13,605 nucleotides of DNA. It comes from Solirubrobacteraceae bacterium (GTDB taxonomy: Bacteria > Actinomycetota > Thermoleophilia > Solirubrobacterales > Solirubrobacteraceae). Under the pieces are notes generated by a model that searched no databases, was not told the DNA's origin, and was given only the letters and a program-made list of their open reading frames with translations. The stretch spans positions 1-13,605 of the forward strand of contig JANJUA010000053.1 of assembly GCA_024710825.1 (NCBI GenBank). The letters are read 5' to 3'. Shown here piece by piece: positions 462-13,605 of this stretch; the stretch's first letter is position 1, and each line of letters begins with the position of its first letter. The translations under genes and the position numbers were made by a program.

Positions 462-1661
462 ATGCCCCGAAAGAGCCGCCCGTTCCTGTTCGCCCTGCTG
501 CTCGCGCTCGCGCTGCCGGTGGCGCTGGCCGCCGGCAAGTCGGCGACGGGCGACAACGGCCCGAACCGCCTGGTCGGCACCGACGGCCCCGACGTCCTGA
601 ACGGCGACGGCGGCATGGACCGGATCTCCGGTCGCGGCGGTCCCGACCAGCTCTTCGGCGGGACCGGCCACGACCGCATCGCGGGTGGGGCGGGCGACGA
701 CGTGATCGACGGCGGCTCCGGCGACGACCGCCTCTCCGGCGGCTCCGGCGACGACCTCGTCAAGGGCGACTTCGGCCACGACACGATCGACGGCGGCTTC
801 GGCGACGACGTCATCGACTCCGGCGCGGCCCCCGACGAGATCGACGCCGGCCCGGGCGACGACACGGTGCACGCGGGCGGCGCCGGGGACCGCGTGCTCG
901 GCGGCGACGGCAACGACGTCATCCACGCGGACTCGGGCCCTGACGTCATCGACGCCGGGCCCGGCGACGACCAGGTGCACGTCAACAACGGCACGGCGGT
1001 CAGGTCCGTCGACTGCGGGCCGGGCGACGACACGATCTACGTCAACCCGTACGAGAGGCCCGGCGGCATCTCCAACCGCCAGGACCTGCGCAACGGCAAC
1101 ATCCGCAACTGCGAGACGGTGATCGAGCAGGCGCCCGAGGACGACCCGACGCGCGGCGTGCGCTACGTGGGCCGGGCCGAGGGCGCGACGATGGCCGGCA
1201 GCGAGCGCAACGACAACCTGCTCGGCCAGCACGGGTCCGACACCTACTCCGGGCTGGGCGGCGACGACGTCATCTGGGGCGATGCGCGCAAGAGCGACGG
1301 CTCCGGCGGCTCGCGCGACCAGCACGACCGGCTCGACGGCGGCCCCGGCGACGACACGATCTTCGGCGGCCCGGGGACGAACACGATCCTCGGCGGCGAC
1401 GGCGACGACGTCCTCCAGGGCGGCACCCACCGCAACAGGATCTTCGGCGGCCCCGGCAACGACGCGATCCGCCTGCGCTCCGCGCGTTCCAATCGCGTCG
1501 ACGCCGGGCCGGGCGACGACCGCGTCGTAGCGATCGTCGGCAGCGGCTCCGCATCCGTGACCTGCGGGCCCGGTCGCGACACGGTCACGGTGTCGAGCGT
1601 GCGCGCCAACCGCCGCCGGGTGAAGGTGGCGGACGACTGCGAACGCGTCGTGCGCGGCTGA
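462..1661 (+). CDS. Secreted RTX-type calcium-binding protein, two beta-roll blocks
   Basis: This 399-residue protein is probably exported and calcium-binding. Residues 1-23 form a Sec signal peptide (MPRKSR, then a Leu/Ala core, likely cut after ALA). Two runs of GGxGxDxhx nonapeptides, the calcium-binding beta-roll unit of RTX proteins, span about 38-195 and 240-355. Each run is followed by a segment starting CGPG(D/R)DT (Cys185, Cys368) and ending in CE(T/R)V (Cys217, Cys393), so the protein looks like a twofold duplication with a likely disulfide closing each half. The N-terminal signal peptide and the apparent lack of a C-terminal type I secretion signal separate it from classical RTX toxins. 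No catalytic domain is visible, so a structural or adhesive envelope role is an inference. The start is the first ATG before the signal peptide; its ribosome site (AAGAG) is poorly spaced. A palindrome begins 22 nt after the stop. Confidence 0.85.
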
Positions 1662-1682
1662 GCGGGGGGAGTGCCCGCGTGG

Positions 1683-1701
1683 CTCCGTAGCAACTACGGA
1701 G
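1683..1701. promoter_or_regulatory. Palindromic candidate operator, site 1 (upstream of nirK-like gene)
   Basis: CTCCGTAGCAACTACGGAG has 8-bp arms around a 3-nt centre. The core TCCGTAG-N3-CTACGGA recurs in the gap at 5597-5615, and only there as far as I can see. It lies 131 bp before the nirK-like start codon. Because it also sits just after the RTX stop, it could instead form a short hairpin terminator, but there is no T-run and the second copy does not follow any gene's stop codon. The regulator is unknown; the half-site does not match FNR, DosR or CsoR boxes as I know them. Confidence 0.6.
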
Positions 1702-1732
1702 GGTGGCTCAGCGGTCTCGTGCAGACTCGCCG

Positions 1733-1751
1733 GGGGAAGTACCTCTTCCCC
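1733..1751 (+). other. Hairpin in nirK-like leader region
   Basis: GGGGAAG-TACCT-CTTCCCC is a perfect 7-bp inverted repeat with a 5-nt loop, about 80 bp before the nirK-like start. It could be a second protein-binding site, an mRNA leader hairpin, or the end of the RTX transcript; there is no T-run. I could not identify a convincing -35/-10 pair here to decide whether it is transcribed. Confidence 0.35.
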
Positions 1752-1831
1752 GCAAATGGGCATGTTTTGGGCCGGCATGGTGGCCAATAGAGCGCTAGAA
1801 CCAATGTCACGGAACCTCCATCGGAGACACC

Positions 1832-3025
1832 ATGAACACCACCGGCAGCACCCCACCCGACCACGAGTTCCCTCTCGCCGACACCCGCCCCGAGCCCCGC
1901 CGCCCCGAGCGTCGCCGCCGTGGCGGCCGCGGAGGGATGCTCCTGTCCGCGGCGGCGCTGGCGCTCGCGCTGGCCACCGCCGTCCTGGTGACCTACGTCG
2001 TCCTCACCGACGAGCTCGGCGGCGGCAACGACACCGCGGTAGCGGCGCAGACCGAGCCCGCGTCGTCGGCCGCCACGGGCCACGAGGGGCATGCCGCCAT
2101 GACGGAGGCCCCGGTCGGGGGCGAGACCGTCGAGCCCTTCGAACGCGTCGATCCCAACGTGCCCGCCGTCCCGGCCGGCAAGATCAAGAAGTTCAAGCTC
2201 GACGTCTACGAGCACGTCACCCGCGTGTCGGACGACCTTCAGCCGGCGCGGATCTGGTCCTACGCCGTCAACGGCGTCTTCCATAGGGGCACCGGCGTCT
2301 CGACGCCGATGGTCGTCAACGAGGGCGACCGCGTGGAGATCACGCTGAACAACGGCCTGCAGAAGGAGATGCAGGTCCAGTATCCGCACTCGGTCGACTT
2401 CCACTCCGCCGAGGTCGCCCCGAACCAGGACTACAAGACGATCGGGCCGGGCGAGACCTACACCTTCAGGTTCACCGCCGACCATCCGGGCGTCTTCATG
2501 TACCACTGCGCCACGGACCCCGTCCTGATGCACACGGCGGCCGGCATGTCGGGGATGATGCTCGTCAAGCCGAAGAACCTGGCCCCCGTCGATCGTGAGC
2601 TGTGGATCACGCAGCAGGAGTACTACCTGGGCCCGAAGTCCGGCGACAACGCCGACCTCGCGAAGGCCGAGGCCAAGCAGCCCGACGTGATCGCCTTCAA
2701 CGGCTACGCCAACCAGTACTCGAAGGCGCCGATCGCGGTGAAGCCCCACGAGCGCATCCGGATGTACGTCCTGAACGCCGGGCCGTCGATCTGGACCGCG
2801 TTCCACGTCATCGGCACGGTCTTCGACCGGACCGTGGTCGAGGGCACCGTGGGCCACTCGGTCCAGACGATCAACCTCGCCCCCTCGCAGGGCGGATGGG
2901 TGGAGTTCACCCTCGAGCGCAAGGGCACCTACCCGTTCGTCGACCATGCGTTCGCCGACATGGGCAAGGGCGCAGCGGGCGTGCTGGCGGCGGGAGTCCC
3001 CGCGAAGCCGGGCATGGGACACTGA
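1832..3025 (+). CDS. nirK: Membrane-anchored NirK-type copper nitrite reductase
   Basis: This is a 397-residue two-cupredoxin protein of the copper nitrite reductase family, which reduces nitrite to nitric oxide outside the membrane. After a basic N-terminus, residues 36-58 form one membrane segment. A His/Met-bearing linker follows (GHEGHAAM, 83-90), then cupredoxin domains at about 115-250 and 255-390. The family's copper ligands all appear present: type 1 His186, Cys226, His234, Met239; type 2 His191, His225, His372; and the catalytic pair Asp189 (PHSVDFH) and His325 (FHVIG). The Cys226-x7-His234 loop is one residue shorter than in Alcaligenes NirK and resembles the Gram-positive type as I recall it. 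GGAG lies 5 nt before ATG. A four-helix protein gene follows after 33 nt. No nitric oxide reductase is in the window. A multicopper oxidase of another specificity remains possible; the fold is near certain and nitrite as substrate likely. Confidence 0.82.
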   Translation: MNTTGSTPPDHEFPLADTRPEPRRPERRRRGGRGGMLLSAAALALALATAVLVTYVVLTDELGGGNDTAVAAQTEPASSAATGHEGHAAMTEAPVGGETVEPFERVDPNVPAVPAGKIKKFKLDVYEHVTRVSDDLQPARIWSYAVNGVFHRGTGVSTPMVVNEGDRVEITLNNGLQKEMQVQYPHSVDFHSAEVAPNQDYKTIGPGETYTFRFTADHPGVFMYHCATDPVLMHTAAGMSGMMLVKPKNLAPVDRELWITQQEYYLGPKSGDNADLAKAEAKQPDVIAFNGYANQYSKAPIAVKPHERIRMYVLNAGPSIWTAFHVIGTVFDRTVVEGTVGHSVQTINLAPSQGGWVEFTLERKGTYPFVDHAFADMGKGAAGVLAAGVPAKPGMGH

Positions 3026-3026
3026 C

Positions 3027-3046
3027 GGTGTGAAGGGCTTCACGCC
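3027..3046 (+). other. Intercistronic hairpin just before the copD-like ribosome site
   Basis: GGTGTGAA-GGGC-TTCACGCC forms an 8-bp RNA stem (one G-U pair) with a 4-nt loop. It begins one base after the nirK-like stop codon and ends directly against the AAGGAGGG ribosome site of the next gene. There is no T-run, so it is more likely an RNA-stability or translation element than a terminator. That role is inference. Confidence 0.4.
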
Positions 3047-3058
3047 AAGGAGGGCTCG

Positions 3059-3433
3059 ATGACGTGGGAGGCCGTCCGCTGGCTGCATCTGCTGGCGATG
3101 GCCTTCTTCGTCGGAGGCCAGCTCGTCCTCGTCGCCGCCGTCCTCCCCGCCTTGCGCGGGGAGCAGGATCGCGACCGCCTCCGGGCGGTCGCGCGGCGCT
3201 TCGGGTGGGGCTCGCTGGCCGCGCTCGTCGTCCTGCTGGGGACCGGCGCGGCGATGGCCGACTACGCCTCCCGCTGGGACGACCGCACCCTGCAGATCAA
3301 GCTCACGCTGGTCGCGGTGGCCGGCGGCCTCGTCCTGTGGCACCTGCGCCGGCCGAACCGCCATTGGATCGAGGGCCTGGTGTTCGTCCTCTCGCTCGTG
3401 ATCGTCTGGCTGGGCGTGGCGATCGCCCACTGA
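3059..3433 (+). CDS. CopD-like four-helix membrane protein
   Basis: This 124-residue integral membrane protein has four predicted helices at about 8-28, 50-68, 78-95 and 104-123. The opening WLHLLAMAFFVGGQ, with His10 in the first helix, and KLTLVAVAGG in the third resemble the CopD/DUF2269-like families of small membrane proteins, some of which are tied to copper import or bind haem through helix histidines (here His10, His95, and His102 beside a helix). A strong AAGGAGGG lies 4 nt before ATG, which fixes the start. It follows the copper nitrite reductase-like gene by 33 nt and is almost surely in its operon. Plausible jobs are copper delivery to that enzyme or membrane electron transfer to it; the sequence does not choose between them. 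Confidence 0.75.
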   Translation: MTWEAVRWLHLLAMAFFVGGQLVLVAAVLPALRGEQDRDRLRAVARRFGWGSLAALVVLLGTGAAMADYASRWDDRTLQIKLTLVAVAGGLVLWHLRRPNRHWIEGLVFVLSLVIVWLGVAIAH

Positions 3434-3439
3434 GGCGCA

Positions 3440-3459
3440 GGCGCGCGCCCGCGCGCGCC
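3440..3459. terminator. GC hairpin between convergent genes
   Basis: GGCGCGCG-CCCG-CGCGCGCC is an 8-bp all-GC stem with a 4-nt loop. It occupies the 39-bp gap between the converging stops of the CopD-like gene and the universal stress gene. It lacks a T-run, which is common for terminators in high-GC actinobacteria, and could serve both directions. Confidence 0.5.
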
Positions 3460-3472
3460 GCGCGAACGGACG

Positions 3473-4336
3473 CTACTGCTCGTCGTCGACCCTCGGGGCC
3501 ACGACGACCGGGCACTCCGCGCGGTGGATGAGGCGGTCGGACGTGCTGCCGAGCACGACCCGCTTGGCGGCCCCCCAGCCGCGCGAGCCGCAGACGATCA
3601 GGTCGACCGACGCCGACAGGCGCTCCAGGGCGCGGCTGGCGTGCTCGCTGACCACCTGGCCCTCCGCCGGGACGCGCAGCCCGGCGAGCGCCTCGTCGAG
3701 CGCCTCGCGCGCGGTCGACATCGCGTCCTCCGCGAGCCCCACCCAGCCGTGGAACTCCTCCGGCGCGAGCGGGAACGCCTCGGGCGGCGGGATCGCCGCC
3801 AGCAGGCTCAGCCGGGCGCCGTACGCCTCCGCGGCGCGCTCCGCGAGCGCGAGGGCGGCGCGCGACTCGGGCCGGCCGTCGTAGCCGACGCCGATCGTCG
3901 CCGGCCGGGCCAGCCTGTCGGCGCAGCCCTTGGGCGCCACCGCGACCGGGCACGGCGCGCCGTGCAGGACGGCGCGGGACACGCTGCCCAGGATCGCGCG
4001 CCCGACGCGGCCGCGGTGGCTGGCGCCGACCACCAGCAGGTCGGCCTCGCGCCGCTCGGCCAGCCGCTTGAGACCGCGGGCCGGGCTGATCTCGGGGACG
4101 GCGACCAGCTCCGCCTGGACGCCGGAGGCCTCGGCGGCGGCGGCGAGCTCGCGCTCGGCGTGCTCGGCGAGCGACCTGCGGTAGCCGGCGAACTCCTCGC
4201 CGGCCTCGGGATCGAAGACGTAGGTGCGGGCCAGGATCAGGCCGTCCTGTCCGCCGAGCGCCGTGGCGAGCGCAACCGCGTCGCGCGCCGCCTCCGGTCG
4301 GTCGATGCCGACGATGCGGGTGGGAAATGGGTTCAT
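3473..4336 (-). CDS. Tandem-domain universal stress protein
   Basis: This 287-residue protein has two UspA domains, at about 6-135 and 146-281. Both carry the ATP-binding signature G2xG9xG(S/T)-like run: GASHRGRVGRAILGS at 104-118 and GSRGWGAAKRVVLGS at 250-264, each followed by a (A/E)CPV(A/V)VAP strand. Tandem proteins of this kind bind ATP and are induced by hypoxia, nitric oxide or starvation in other actinobacteria; the biochemical role here is not evident. The frame is open upstream to 4501, but the start is ATG 4336, with GGAAGG about 6 nt before it, because the UspA fold begins at residue 6. That ATG overlaps the stop of the upstream FAD oxidoreductase gene (ATGA), so the two are translationally coupled. 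With the copper nitrite reductase and the shared palindrome nearby, a redox or nitrosative stress role is reasonable. Confidence 0.92.
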   Translation of the reverse strand: MNPFPTRIVGIDRPEAARDAVALATALGGQDGLILARTYVFDPEAGEEFAGYRRSLAEHAERELAAAAEASGVQAELVAVPEISPARGLKRLAERREADLLVVGASHRGRVGRAILGSVSRAVLHGAPCPVAVAPKGCADRLARPATIGVGYDGRPESRAALALAERAAEAYGARLSLLAAIPPPEAFPLAPEEFHGWVGLAEDAMSTAREALDEALAGLRVPAEGQVVSEHASRALERLSASVDLIVCGSRGWGAAKRVVLGSTSDRLIHRAECPVVVAPRVDDEQ

Positions 4337-5547
4337 CGGATCCTTCCGAGGGTGTCCAGGGTGGTCGCGGCCTCCGCGCTGTCGGCCGGCAGGGCAACGT
4401 CCACGTCGAGGGCGGTCGCCGCGGGCGGGGGCTCCCCGCCGGCGTCGTGGGCGCGCAGCCACGGCCCCAGATAGCGCCCGGCGACCTTCGTGGGCGGCCA
4501 CCAGAGCGGCTCGATCGACGCTTCCCCCTCGCCGTCTCCCGCCGCGGCGCGGCGCAGGTAGCGGGCCGTCTCGCCCGTCAGCAGCCGCCCGCGGAGCACG
4601 GGCCGGAACGGCTCGGGAGCCACGTCGGCGCCGGCGCGCGCGGCGATCTGGGTCGCCGCCGCGTCAGCCTGCTGGGTGGCGATGCCGCCCTGCTTGACCG
4701 GGTAGGTGGTGCCGTCGCCCGCCGCCCACACGTCGTCGACGTCCACGACCCGCGCGTGGTCGTCGATGCGGATGAAGCCGTCGGCGTCGCGCGGCACGCC
4801 CGGGATGCGCGGGCCCTGAAGCACCGGCAGCGCGACGATCCGCTCCGCCGTCACCGTGCGGCCGCTCGCGCCGAGCCCGATCACGCCGCCCGTGATCTCG
4901 GCGTCGGCCCCGAGCTCCACCGCGATGCCGGCCGCGGCGAGCAGCGCGGCCACGGGCTCGCTCGCGGCGGCGCCGAACAGCGCCAGCGGCGCCCGCTCCG
5001 GCGTGACCAGCGTGATCCGCACGTCCTCGATCCCCATCGCCCGCACGTCGCGCGCCGTGAGCAGCGCGAGCTCGTACGCCGGCAGCGTCCAGGCGACGCC
5101 GGGAGGCACGACGAACGCGACGCTCTTCGACCAGCCCTCCTCGAGGTCGGCGAGGAGCCCGGCGAGCGCGGTCGGGTCGTGCTCGCCCTGGAAGGTGAGG
5201 ACGTGGCCGTACGCCGCGACGGGGCGGGCGCCCGGCGCCAGGAGCAGCGCGTCGTAGGCCCGCCGGCCGCCGTCGGAGAGGACGACCTCGTGCGCGTCGG
5301 CGTCGACGCGCTGCACCGCCGCGGCCACGACCTCCGCCCCGAGCTGCTGCGCGATCGACGGCAGCGACCGGTGCTTCGCGTGCGTGACCCCGAACGGCTC
5401 GCCGACCGACAGCGGCGTCATGACGAAGTCCGGCCGTGGGCTGACGAGCGTGAGCGCGACGCGCTCGGCCGCCATGTCGCGCAGGGCCAACGCCGCCTCG
5501 ACCGCCGCGACGCCCCCGCCGGCGATCACCACGTTGAGGGGACTCAT
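4333..5547 (-). CDS. Cysteine-free FAD/NAD(P) oxidoreductase (SQR/NDH-2-like fold)
   Basis: This 404-residue flavoprotein belongs to the pyridine nucleotide-disulfide oxidoreductase superfamily. The FAD-binding dinucleotide fold opens at residues 5-21 (VVIAGGGVAAVEAALAL). LLLAPGARP at 101-109 is the usual ATG-like motif, and the second FAD motif with its helix is at 273-298 (VWAAGDG...QGGIATQQA). The layout resembles sulfide:quinone oxidoreductase and type II NADH dehydrogenase, yet I find no cysteine in the whole protein. This excludes an SQR or disulfide-reductase mechanism. The C-terminal WWPPTKVAGRYLGPWL (349-364) could be a membrane-contact or family-specific patch. ATG 5547 has AAGGTGA about 5 nt upstream. 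The stop overlaps the start of the universal stress gene. Electron donor and acceptor are unknown; an NAD(P)H-quinone role is a guess. Confidence 0.85.
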   Translation of the reverse strand: MSPLNVVIAGGGVAAVEAALALRDMAAERVALTLVSPRPDFVMTPLSVGEPFGVTHAKHRSLPSIAQQLGAEVVAAAVQRVDADAHEVVLSDGGRRAYDALLLAPGARPVAAYGHVLTFQGEHDPTALAGLLADLEEGWSKSVAFVVPPGVAWTLPAYELALLTARDVRAMGIEDVRITLVTPERAPLALFGAAASEPVAALLAAAGIAVELGADAEITGGVIGLGASGRTVTAERIVALPVLQGPRIPGVPRDADGFIRIDDHARVVDVDDVWAAGDGTTYPVKQGGIATQQADAAATQIAARAGADVAPEPFRPVLRGRLLTGETARYLRRAAAGDGEGEASIEPLWWPPTKVAGRYLGPWLRAHDAGGEPPPAATALDVDVALPADSAEAATTLDTLGRIR

Positions 5548-5596
5548 GCCGTCACCTTAGGCGAGCGGTGGCGTCAAGGCCCGGGCGACGCGACGG

Positions 5597-5615
5597 ATCC
5601 GTAGTGACTACGGAT
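5597..5615. promoter_or_regulatory. Palindromic candidate operator, site 2 (divergent FAD / small membrane gene gap)
   Basis: ATCCGTAGTGACTACGGAT is a perfect palindrome with 9-bp arms around one central G. It shares TCCGTAG-N2-ACTACGGA with the site at 1683-1701. Its centre is about 59 bp from the FAD oxidoreductase start on one side and 100 bp from the 72-residue membrane protein start on the other, so one regulator could act on both promoters. Confidence 0.65.
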
Positions 5616-5705
5616 GCCGGCCGCGGGACGGTGCGGACGACGCACGGCGGGAGCGGGCGGAAGATCGACGTAGTCAACTCGTCACACGTACCGGGGGGAA
5701 CCGAC

Positions 5706-5924
5706 ATGAGCATCGACGAAATCGACACAGGCCGACACGAGCCCAGCGCCCAGACCCTGCTCCTCTGGATGGCGGTGGCCACGCTCGTCGTCACGCTCGC
5801 CGTCGTCGTGGCGATCGTCTCGATGGGCGTGACCGCCGGCATGTTCGTCGCCTACGGCACGCTGATCGTCGCCGCGTTCGCGGTCTTCGCCTACATCATG
5901 CGGTTCATCGGCCCGGAGGGCTGA
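5706..5924 (+). CDS. Small two-helix membrane protein, unknown function
   Basis: I do not recognise this 72-residue protein. Residues 1-16 are polar and acidic (MSIDEIDTGRHEPSAQ). Two hydrophobic helices follow at about 18-40 and 44-66, joined by a short Gly-containing turn, with a short tail. There are no cysteines, and the single histidine lies outside the helices. The frame is open from 5568, but ATG 5706 is the likely start: it has GGGGGGAA about 5 nt upstream, and the extra N-terminal stretch has the composition of non-coding DNA and would overlap the palindrome at 5597-5615. It is divergent from the FAD oxidoreductase and ends at a strong shared hairpin. By context it may be a small membrane partner in the same redox response. 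Confidence 0.72.
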   Translation: MSIDEIDTGRHEPSAQTLLLWMAVATLVVTLAVVVAIVSMGVTAGMFVAYGTLIVAAFAVFAYIMRFIGPEG

Positions 5925-5985: not shown

Positions 5986-8202
5986 TCAGCGGCGGACCGC
6001 GTAGCTGCGGGCCAGCTTCGTCGGCGCCCCGGCGCCCCGGCTGGCGGCCCGCAGCGTCAGGTCGAGCGTGAGCCCCTTGCGGCGCCTGCCGAGCGCCCGG
6101 GCCAGCCGCGCGGCCGAGGCTGACGACAGCGTCAGCCGGGCACGGCGCTCGCGGCCGCCCGGAAGCGTGCGGGCGCGGAGCGTCAGGCGCACCCTCGGCG
6201 CCCCGGTGCGCGGGCGCAGCGTCGCGCCGCCGCTCAGGCGGCAGGTCCGGTCGCACGTGACCACCACCACCGCTCCGCGGCGCGACAGCATCCCCGCGCG
6301 GCGCTCGAGGCGCACGTCGAGGACCGGGGCCGGCTCGGGTGGCGGGGGCGGCGGCGGGGGCGGCGCGGGCGGTGGCGTCGGCTGACACGTCCCCACCGCC
6401 GGATCGGTGGGCAGGAAGCGCTGCACGCGATGGTTCTCGAGGTCGGTGACCGACACCACGCCCGTGCAGCCGATCGCGACGTCCACCGGCCGCATGAACC
6501 GCCCGACGGCGGAGCCGCGCCCACCCCACGCCTCGACGAAGCGGCCCTCCGCGGTGAAGCGCTGGATGCGGTCGTTGCTCGAGTCGACGACCCACACGTC
6601 GCCGCGCAGGTCGACCGCGACGCCCGACGGGTTGCGGAAGTGGCCCGTGCGCATGCCGGTGGAGCCGAACGTGCCCGCCACCCGGCCCTCGGCGTCGAAG
6701 CGCACGATCCGGTCGTTGCCCGTGTCGGCGACGTAGACGTGACCGTCGGGCGCCACCGCGGCGGCGCGCGGCCCGTCGAGCAGGTCGGGGGTCGCGCCCG
6801 GCACCGAGGGGCCGAACGAGAGCAGCGGCGCGCCGCCGGGGTCGAGCTTCTGCACCCGGTCGTTGAGCGTGTCGGCGACGTAGAGGAACGAGCCGCCGTC
6901 GACGTCCACGTCCTGCGGGCCGGCGAAGCGGCCCGGTCCGAGGCCGGGTCCGCCTACCACCGCCAGGACCGTGCCGTAGTAGTCGCGCAGGACGAGCCGG
7001 TCGTTGCCGGTGTCGGCGGTCCACGAGCGGAAGTCGGAGGTCATCGCGACGCCCTTGGCCACCTGGAGCCGGTCGTCGTCCTGGCCCAGCCGGCCGAAGG
7101 CGCCCACCAGGCCGTTGTCGGGGCCGAACTGCTGGATGCGGCTGTTGGCCGAGTCGGCGACGGCCAGGCCGCCGTCCGGCGAGGAGCCGATCCCGGCCGG
7201 GTCGATGAACTGTCCGGGCGCGCGGGCGTCGCGGCCGATCGTGCGCTCAAAGCGGCCGTCGCCGGCGAACACGGAGATCCGCCCGTTGGCGGAGTCCGCG
7301 ACGTAGACGCTGCCCGCCGCGTCGACGGCGATGCCGCGGATGTAGGCGAGCTGGCCGGGGGCGGTGCCGTAGCCGTCGCCGAAGGTCCGCACGGGCCGGC
7401 CGAGGGCGTCGAACTGGCTGACGCGGTGGTTCATGTTGTCGGCGACGAAGACGTTGCCCGCGGCGTCGACCGCCACGTCGTACGGGTTGTAGAGCCGGCC
7501 GAGCTCGCGTCCGTGGCCGGCGCCGACGATCGCGCGAAAGTCGCCGTCGGGGCCGAAGACCTGCACCCGGTGGTTGCGGTTGTCGGCCACGTAGACGGCG
7601 TCCGCGGTCGCCCACACGCCCTGCGGGACGTTCAGGCGCCCCGGGCTGTTGCCGAAGCCGCCGAACTCGATCGCGCCGGAGCCGTCGAGGTCGAAGCGCT
7701 GGATGCGGTTGTTCAGCGTGTCGGCGACGTAGATGTGGCTCGCGGTGACCGAGATGCCGCCGCCCGCGCCCTGGCCGACGCTGCCGCCGCTGCCGAAGCG
7801 GAACTGGCCGAGCCGGCCGCCCTTGGAGCCGAACGCGCTGACGAGCTGGCCGTCGGGCCGGAAGCGCTGGATGCGGTTGCGGCCGGCGTCGACCACGTAG
7901 ATCGATCCATCCGGTCCGACCGCCACGCCGCCGACCGAGGTCAGCTCGCCCTCGCGCGAGCCGTAGGTGCCGAAGGCGGCCTGAAAGCCGCCGTCCGGGC
8001 CGAAGCGCTGGATCGCGTGCGTGAACTGGTCGCCTACGTACGTCGTGCCGTCGGGCGCCACCGCGACCGCCTGCGGCAGGCGCAGCACGCCGCCGTCGCG
8101 ATCGCCGATCACGCTCACCGAGGTGTAGGAGGCGGGCGCCGGCGCGGCGGCGACCAGCAGCGCCAGCGACGCGAGCAGTGCGGCTAGGAGCGGACGGGCC
8201 AT
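5986..8202 (-). CDS. Secreted twelve-repeat NHL beta-propeller protein
   Basis: This is a 738-residue exported protein. The signal peptide is at 1-25 (MARPLLAALLASLALLV..., cut near APAS). About twelve NHL repeats follow (28-606), each of the form (G/D)VAVD-x-DG-x-(V/I)YVADxxNxRIQxF-x-DG-x(8)-FG. Twelve repeats fit two six-bladed propellers. A proline-rich hinge (607-627) leads to a C-terminal beta-rich domain with a Cys650-DRT-Cys654 pair and many arginines. NHL propellers bind proteins, glycans or RNA, or serve as enzyme scaffolds; no catalytic residues are evident. The frame extends to GTG 8238, but ATG 8202 gives a cleaner signal peptide; neither has a good ribosome site. It is the last leftward gene, 52 bp after the epimerase, and ends at the strong hairpin. 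A surface or cell-wall role is inferred. Confidence 0.85.
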   Translation of the reverse strand: MARPLLAALLASLALLVAAAPAPASYTSVSVIGDRDGGVLRLPQAVAVAPDGTTYVGDQFTHAIQRFGPDGGFQAAFGTYGSREGELTSVGGVAVGPDGSIYVVDAGRNRIQRFRPDGQLVSAFGSKGGRLGQFRFGSGGSVGQGAGGGISVTASHIYVADTLNNRIQRFDLDGSGAIEFGGFGNSPGRLNVPQGVWATADAVYVADNRNHRVQVFGPDGDFRAIVGAGHGRELGRLYNPYDVAVDAAGNVFVADNMNHRVSQFDALGRPVRTFGDGYGTAPGQLAYIRGIAVDAAGSVYVADSANGRISVFAGDGRFERTIGRDARAPGQFIDPAGIGSSPDGGLAVADSANSRIQQFGPDNGLVGAFGRLGQDDDRLQVAKGVAMTSDFRSWTADTGNDRLVLRDYYGTVLAVVGGPGLGPGRFAGPQDVDVDGGSFLYVADTLNDRVQKLDPGGAPLLSFGPSVPGATPDLLDGPRAAAVAPDGHVYVADTGNDRIVRFDAEGRVAGTFGSTGMRTGHFRNPSGVAVDLRGDVWVVDSSNDRIQRFTAEGRFVEAWGGRGSAVGRFMRPVDVAIGCTGVVSVTDLENHRVQRFLPTDPAVGTCQPTPPPAPPPPPPPPPEPAPVLDVRLERRAGMLSRRGAVVVVTCDRTCRLSGGATLRPRTGAPRVRLTLRARTLPGGRERRARLTLSSASAARLARALGRRRKGLTLDLTLRAASRGAGAPTKLARSYAVRR

Positions 8203-8254
8203 CGGAAGTGCGACACCGATGACGCGGTGAAGTTGCACGCCGGGTGCCGGTAGG

Positions 8255-13162: not shown

Positions 13163-13605
13163 ATGCAGCAGACGCCCATCCGCACGATCGTCGCCGAGCC
13201 GGATCCCCTGGCTCGCCGGGTCGTGGCCGGATACCTGCGCGACAGCGGGCGCTTCGAGGTGGTCGCGGAGAGCGGTGACGGCGAGGAGGCGCTGGAGCTC
13301 ATCGCCACCCACCGCCCGCACGTGCTCGTGACCGAGATGAGCCTCTCGCGGATCAACGGCCTCGACCTCATCGGGCGGGTCGCTGCCGCGTCGCCCGGCA
13401 CGCGCGTCATCGCGCTCACCGCGTTCGAGGACTCCCAGCTGGCCCTCTCCGCGCTGCGCCGCGGCGCGTCCGGGGTGCTGTCCAAGTCGATCGGCGGCGA
13501 GGCGATCGCCCGCGCCGTCGAGGCCGTCCACACGGGCGAGGCCGCGATCACCCGTGAGCTGACCTCCGAGATCGTGCGCCGGTTCCGCGCCATCCCGGAG
13601 CCGGG
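13163..13605 (+). CDS. NarL-type response regulator with atypical receiver (runs off right edge)
   Basis: The first 147 residues of a response regulator are in the window, with no stop before the edge. The receiver domain spans about 6-122. Acidic pocket residues are Glu12 and Asp14 (VAEPDP), Thr86 (ALTAFED) is the switch threonine, and Lys108 (LSKS) is the conserved lysine. The phosphoacceptor position is Glu58 (VLVTEMSLSRINGLDL) instead of aspartate. Residues after 123 (HTGEAAITRELTSEIVRRF) look like the linker that leads to a LuxR-type helix-turn-helix in the NarL family; that domain would lie beyond the window. ATG 13163 is the only sensible start and has no ribosome site, so a leaderless message is possible. 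The aspartate-to-glutamate change suggests regulation that does not need phosphorylation. No sensor kinase is in the window. Confidence 0.88.
   Translation, partial: MQQTPIRTIVAEPDPLARRVVAGYLRDSGRFEVVAESGDGEEALELIATHRPHVLVTEMSLSRINGLDLIGRVAAASPGTRVIALTAFEDSQLALSALRRGASGVLSKSIGGEAIARAVEAVHTGEAAITRELTSEIVRRFRAIPEP

Follow-up and report, generated by a model that had tools for sequence, protein, structure and literature searches.

The window analysed here, a stretch of 13,605 nucleotides, is the whole of contig C28 of a draft genome of a Solirubrobacteraceae bacterium (3,038,914 bases, or 3.04 Mb, in 444 contigs, 90.22% complete). The candidate sites and the genes that surround them are as follows.

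1684..1700, no strand: candidate palindromic operator, site 1, TCCGTAGCAACTACGGA, upstream of nirK
1832..3025, + strand: NirK-like copper nitrite reductase, 397 aa, with Cu-oxidase Pfam domains; candidate target of site 1
3059..3433, + strand: membrane protein of 124 aa, downstream of nirK; called CopD-like in the initial annotation
3473..4336, - strand: tandem universal stress protein (Usp), 287 aa, with two stretches of Pfam Usp
4333..5547, - strand: FAD/NAD(P) oxidoreductase, 404 aa, Pyr_redox_2; candidate target of site 2
5598..5614, no strand: candidate palindromic operator, site 2, TCCGTAGTGACTACGGA, in the gap that separates the divergent genes of the FAD oxidoreductase and the small membrane protein
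5706..5924, + strand: membrane protein of 72 aa, with a sub-threshold DUF3325 match only; candidate target of site 2

The best PDB match of the NirK-like protein is the nitrite reductase 3wia (E 1.2e-46), and its score against the NCBIfam nitrite-reductase model TIGR02376 is 138 bits, under the cut-off of 296.3; the protein carries a long N-terminal extension. Searches of Pfam and NCBIfam gave no match for the 124-aa membrane protein. The start of the Usp gene overlaps the end of the FAD oxidoreductase gene by 4 bp on the same strand. The window also encodes an RTX calcium-binding repeat protein with seven stretches (462-1661), an NHL-repeat beta-propeller protein (5989-8238) and, truncated by the contig end, a NarL-type response regulator (13163-13605) that is 24% identical to the candidate regulator described below.

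Two palindromes in promoter regions of the window

Sites 1 and 2 are identical at 15 of 17 positions and both are intergenic, the first lying 22 bp past the stop codon of the RTX-repeat gene and 131 bp ahead of the nirK ATG, the second 50 bp ahead of the ATG of the FAD gene and 91 bp ahead of that of the 72-aa membrane-protein gene. No other match to TCCGTAGN3CTACGGA is present in the window at up to three mismatches; dinucleotide shuffles of the window yielded a mean of 0.37 matches at up to three mismatches, and two matches were reached in 12 of 200 shuffles, mismatched ones counted. In the window genome the exact box is present in two copies, both in the window, and the reversed pattern, used as the control for box counts, in none; no third exact copy was found in the 444 contigs of this 90.22% complete genome. 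The initial annotation had correctly described two near-identical intergenic palindromes. When up to two mismatches are allowed, the count in the window genome equals that of the control (8 versus 8), so that this genome, taken alone, is informative for exact or near-exact copies only. The relaxed form of the box defined below gave 44 sites versus 24 for the control at two mismatches, which is barely above the control and mostly noise, and none of the secondary boxes within the window exceeded the control. The case for a putative function of the palindrome is made by the relatives of this organism and not by its own genome.

A palindrome of this kind might act in RNA or be a repeat, that is, a terminator hairpin past the RTX gene or one copy of a dispersed repeat, as suggested by its perfect seven-pair stem with a 3-base loop and by the location of site 1 shortly past a stop codon. 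We consider this highly improbable, as site 2 lies between divergent start codons and the box recurs before genes across genera. A terminator or RNA hairpin was rejected on the grounds that no terminator-like site was detected in 1600-5760, and a repeat element on the grounds that the genome holds two exact copies.

Recurrence of the box in the family and order

Among 146 genomes of the family, the exact box was found at 11 sites in 9 genomes, versus 2 for the reversed pattern, and among 232 genomes of the order at 15 sites in 13 genomes, versus 3. Outside the order, in the rest of the class sample, the count was at the control level (2 versus 2) and neither box adjoined a target gene. Eleven of the 15 exact sites of the order precede members of a recurring gene set, grouped after the fact, which comprises a NarL/FixJ-type response regulator, Usp, FAD oxidoreductase, terminal oxidase, nirK and the 72-residue membrane protein. 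A NarL-type regulator gene is located downstream of five of the 15 (genomes G025, G030, G134, G135 and G175), a Usp gene follows the box in G172 and G174 and an FAD oxidoreductase gene follows it in G173 and in the window, while in G039 the exact box separates the gene of a zinc alcohol dehydrogenase from those of a COX2/COX1 oxidase. Among these 15 sites, nirK is downstream of the window copy only. Overlap with the 3' end of a Usp gene was noted for the boxes of G134 and G135. No related gene was found beside four of the 15 sites (G069 twice, G101 and G126). The box, its recurrence and its association with these genes can be read directly from the sequences.

The fifth inner position was relaxed to R/Y, giving TCCGTRG-N3-CYACGGA, after viewing upstream regions of the family, including that of genome G117, which recurs as locus L196 in the test described below. 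In the same 232 genomes the relaxed box occurs at 43 sites versus 10 for the reversed pattern, and the locus context of 28 of the 43 was inspected, earlier loci not being counted twice. These contexts included a kinase/Usp gap (G028), a CBS gene (G107), an FAD gene (G117), alcohol dehydrogenase genes (G122 and G127) and the membrane-protein gene (G023). The pure GTGG-N3-CCAC form had an adjoining target gene at one of nine inspected loci (G023), its contexts being mostly unrelated. Unbiased enumeration of palindromes in 75 upstream regions did not single out the box: CCGTAG-N3 was counted 7 versus 0, and several G+C-rich and control palindromes also reached at least 7 versus 0. A separate palindrome, TCCGTGGAGACCACGGA, is present in four genomes of one genus (G132, G133, G135 and G138), with no known target beside it in the inspected loci.

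Conservation was also followed upstream of individual targets. The gene for the 72-aa membrane protein is present in 3 of the 146 family genomes, all congeneric with the window, and a box precedes it in all three: it is exact in the window, in G023 it is a perfect palindrome of the GTGG type, and in G022 it reads TACGTAGGAACCACTGA, with two mismatches. The terminal oxidase of the G039 type is present in 2 of the 146 (G039 and the window genome), preceded by an exact box in G039 and by a two-mismatch box in the window genome, whose oxidase promoter also holds TCCGTAGTTTCCCCGG and a further three-mismatch element. This promoter (contig C44, upstream of COX2; loci L146 and L152) apparently contains three box-like elements about 21-23 bp apart, of which two were scored and the middle one was judged by eye; one of them contains the FixJ SELEX motif GTAGTTTCCC.

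The first family upstream scan, from which row L005 was left out for having no alignment, gave an exact box upstream of 4 of 33 distinct regulator genes (35 rows, 2 duplicates). Homologues of the FAD oxidoreductase at E <= 1e-60 are present in 99 of the 146 family genomes. The expectation that the box would be conserved upstream of orthologous genes was borne out by the membrane protein and by the oxidase, but for the most part not by the homologues of nirK and of the FAD gene: in the first family set a box was found at the window's own nirK copy only (1 of 11 loci, several starts being extrapolated) and, with 0-1 mismatch, upstream of 2 of 31 FAD genes. Drift of the box, patchiness of the regulon or a different binding protein would each explain why the box cannot be recognized at most homologues. 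Near-matches in the window genome were noted in the SCO1-CtaA gap (C7), ahead of a piece of an FAD gene (C328) and about 350 bp ahead of an FAD gene (C114), and because of the control rate they are treated as leads.

Loci selected by the regulator protein

Eighty named loci, amounting to 849,204 bases, were retrieved with an alignment of ten regulators and without use of the motif. They are largely from Solirubrobacterales, the others being small numbers of records from Streptomyces, Chloroflexota and unclassified actinobacteria. With up to one mismatch, the relaxed box was found 7 times in these loci versus 0 for the reversed pattern, and five of the seven lie 0-300 bp before a gene of the target list, a list that was itself partly derived from motif hits. 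At two mismatches the counts were 22 versus 9, and 8 of the 22 versus none of the 9 were located 0-300 bp before a target; at three mismatches the corresponding values (13 of 101 versus 8 of 103) are noise. The relaxed box was seen ahead of nirK, FAD, Usp, kinase and regulator genes. In locus L180, from a named MAG, a nirK homologue (55%) is found within the regulator locus, and a one-mismatch box lies 93 bp before its aligned start.

A matrix was also trained on 22 sites outside the 80-locus set. A score of at least 14 was reached in 13 of 193 upstream regions, one of which (L196) repeats a training site, versus 0 for the reversed pattern, and a score of at least 12 in 16 of 193 versus 1, some divergent gene pairs sharing one site. 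Upstream regions had been excluded if the alignment started beyond query residue 30, if its score was below 60 bits or if the piece was shorter than 60 bases; after removal of two further regions with starts off the locus, leaving 191, a box with up to two mismatches was present in 16 of the 191 target upstream regions versus 0 for the reversed pattern. That the two palindromes of the window match by chance and have no function is consistent with the equal counts at two mismatches in the window genome and with the four exact sites of the order that look unrelated. Given the 15 versus 3 exact sites in the order, the box upstream of all three membrane-protein genes and the counts of 7 versus 0 and 16 of 191 versus 0 in loci that were not picked by the motif, we regard it as very improbable.

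Among the 80 loci, 33 contain a DosS/DosT-like kinase, 29 the FAD gene and 19 Usp, and the FAD and regulator genes often adjoin. Two Streptomyces records (L230:5941 and L232:5953) carry TCCGAAGGTTTCACGGG / TCCGAAGGTTCCACGGG at a distance of 45 bp upstream of a regulator homologue that is 38-39% identical. Locus L159, in a record titled Chlamydiae bacterium, encodes a regulator 69% identical to that of Solirubrobacter, and the record is probably mislabelled.

Known boxes were searched in the same 191 target upstream regions, those of NarL (7-2-7), FNR and CRP as consensus sequences. The boxes of DosR, OsdR, NarL (7-2-7), CRP, Rex and BlaI type were not enriched. In agreement with the initial annotation, which had set the palindrome apart from the DosR and FNR boxes, the DosR core was found in 0 of 191 regions at up to two mismatches, and FNR-type sites were not enriched at up to one mismatch; their counts against the reversed pattern were 0 at one mismatch, 12 versus 7 at two and 66 versus 25 at three. 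The excess at three mismatches could reflect composition or a second regulator. The CRP box was counted 1 versus 0 at one mismatch and 7 versus 4 at two.

These data bear on whether the palindrome is a true shared operator that is recognized by another protein, for instance of the CRP/FNR, Rrf2 or ArsR families or another NarL-type regulator, and that controls the two-component genes among others. Such a binder is unlikely, although it deserves serious consideration: the close homologues of the regulator in the window genome (contigs C442 and C41) have no box upstream, nor do most orthologues of the regulator, and 48 matches to the NarL-type regulator in this genome leave room for another member of the family to bind. 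Against it, five of the 15 exact sites precede a NarL-type regulator gene, the box is enriched in loci selected by that very regulator, and neither the CRP, NarL (7-2-7), Rex and BlaI-type boxes nor, at low mismatch, FNR-type sites are enriched. The CRP/FNR, Rrf2 or ArsR-type regulator suggested initially did not find support in the loci inspected, the recurrent regulator gene beside the boxes being that of a NarL/FixJ-type response regulator, accompanied in most of the closely inspected loci by a DosS/DosT-like kinase.

A DosS/DosT-like kinase and a candidate regulon

The kinases of the G134 locus and of contig C41 of the window genome have the GAF-A domains of DosS/DosT as their best PDB matches (E 1e-41 and 4e-43). 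These two kinases and that of G175 are composed of two GAF domains, HisKA_3 and HATPase_c, and the kinase of G030 is of the PAS type. DosS is reported to bind haem with His149 as the proximal ligand and Tyr171 on the distal side, in the numbering of PMC4082495. In an alignment of 37 kinases, in which columns were assigned to DosS residues by our own mapping from structure-match alignments, His occupies the His149 column in 36 of 37 and Tyr the Tyr171 column in 36 of 37; in the Glu87 column, 33 have Gly, as in DosT, one has Ala and three have no coverage. Haem binding by these kinases is predicted from these residues. On contig C41 the kinase gene (940-2775) is linked to a regulator gene (2802-3422), a pair that, like the haem-pocket residues, is directly visible in the sequence.

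The regulators are receiver and GerE proteins according to Pfam (G030 and G134 homologues). They match NarL, VraR and DevR about equally, and among solved structures that of NarL matches the G134 regulator best. Their recognition helix, RTVETHRAHIQ in nearly all aligned regulators, differs from that of DevR (KTVKNYVSRLL in 3c3w), which would fit a different box.

Among known systems, this one resembles DosS/DosT-DosR (DevS/DevR) of Mycobacterium tuberculosis, with which it shares a kinase of the GAF-A haem type in which the columns of the proximal His and the distal Tyr are conserved, a NarL-family response regulator and Usp among the likely targets. By contrast, the DosR consensus TTSGGGACTWWAGTCCCSAA is not enriched here, the recognition helix is another one, and the targets are likely to extend to NirK and to a terminal oxidase accompanied by assembly genes. 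Since the box and the recognition helix, two defining features of DosRST, are not those of DosR, we describe the system as Dos-like in working and do not file it as a DosR regulon. The initial suggestion that the regulator may be undescribed suits the box and suits the kind of system, which is DosRST-like, less well. OsdK/OsdR of Streptomyces coelicolor is likewise a two-component system, whose targets include Usp and whose own gene is preceded by a box (PMC5069765); its box, AGGGCCGATCGGCCCT, is given there as resembling the DosR box and, in contrast to the present one, is not enriched in the 191 upstream regions.

FixL/FixJ of rhizobia is an oxygen-responsive two-component system whose SELEX motifs, listed as GTAGTTTCCC and GTAMGTAG in PMC4999443, resemble the half-site of the box, and the oxidase promoter of the window genome, with its TCCGTAGTTTCCCCGG, bears a partial resemblance to them. 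However, the main-locus kinases (G134, G175 and C41) are of the GAF type and not haem PAS proteins, PAS being found in G030 only, and the two regulators of the window genome, at 57.2 and 65.8 bits, fall short of the cut-off of 255 of the NCBIfam FixJ model. NarX/NarL shares the structural match of the regulator to NarL and differs in that the NarL 7-2-7 box is not enriched and the kinases here are GAF-type.

Taken together, these results indicate that the box is probably the operator of the NarL/FixJ-type regulator, with a DosS/DosT-like kinase upstream, in an oxygen/NO-responsive, DosRST-like regulon that has a different operator and a respiratory branch. That the regulator is the protein bound to the box, which gas is sensed and that binding leads to activation and not repression are inferences. 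In such a circuit, a fall in oxygen or the binding of NO or CO would cause the haem GAF kinase to phosphorylate the regulator, and the phosphorylated regulator would bind TCCGTRG-N3-CYACGGA as a dimer and switch on low-oxygen and stress genes. Its targets in some species would be its own two-component genes, Usp, FAD oxidoreductases, an alcohol dehydrogenase, CBS proteins and a haem-copper oxidase together with the SCO1/CtaA assembly genes; in the window genome they would include the copper nitrite reductase and the small membrane protein. The earlier proposal that one regulator governs the NirK pair, the FAD/Usp pair and the membrane protein gains support from the box upstream of the membrane-protein gene in all three genomes and from the relaxed box in loci chosen independently of the motif.

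As far as our searches show, little has been published on how soil Thermoleophilia respond to oxygen and NO: we found no work linking Solirubrobacter with DosR, none on the regulation of nitrite reductase in Thermoleophilia and, at the level of literature listings, no published description of the TCCGTRG-N3-CYACGGA box. A bolder reading, which we advance tentatively and with some doubt, is that Solirubrobacterales have a Dos-type haem-GAF sensor and that its regulator has exchanged the DosR box for a CCGTRG half-site of the FixJ kind as its DNA specificity, so that sensing of oxygen or NO would directly drive nitrite and haem-copper respiration together with dormancy-type stress proteins. If this shift is real, a mycobacterial kind of sensor would be wired to a rhizobial kind of output. 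If the regulon proposed here is right, it would provide an operator, a kinase and a regulator identified by name and a few targets, all open to testing in culturable Solirubrobacter or Conexibacter, and it would mean that sensing of the Dos type can act through a different DNA box and be linked to nitrite respiration.
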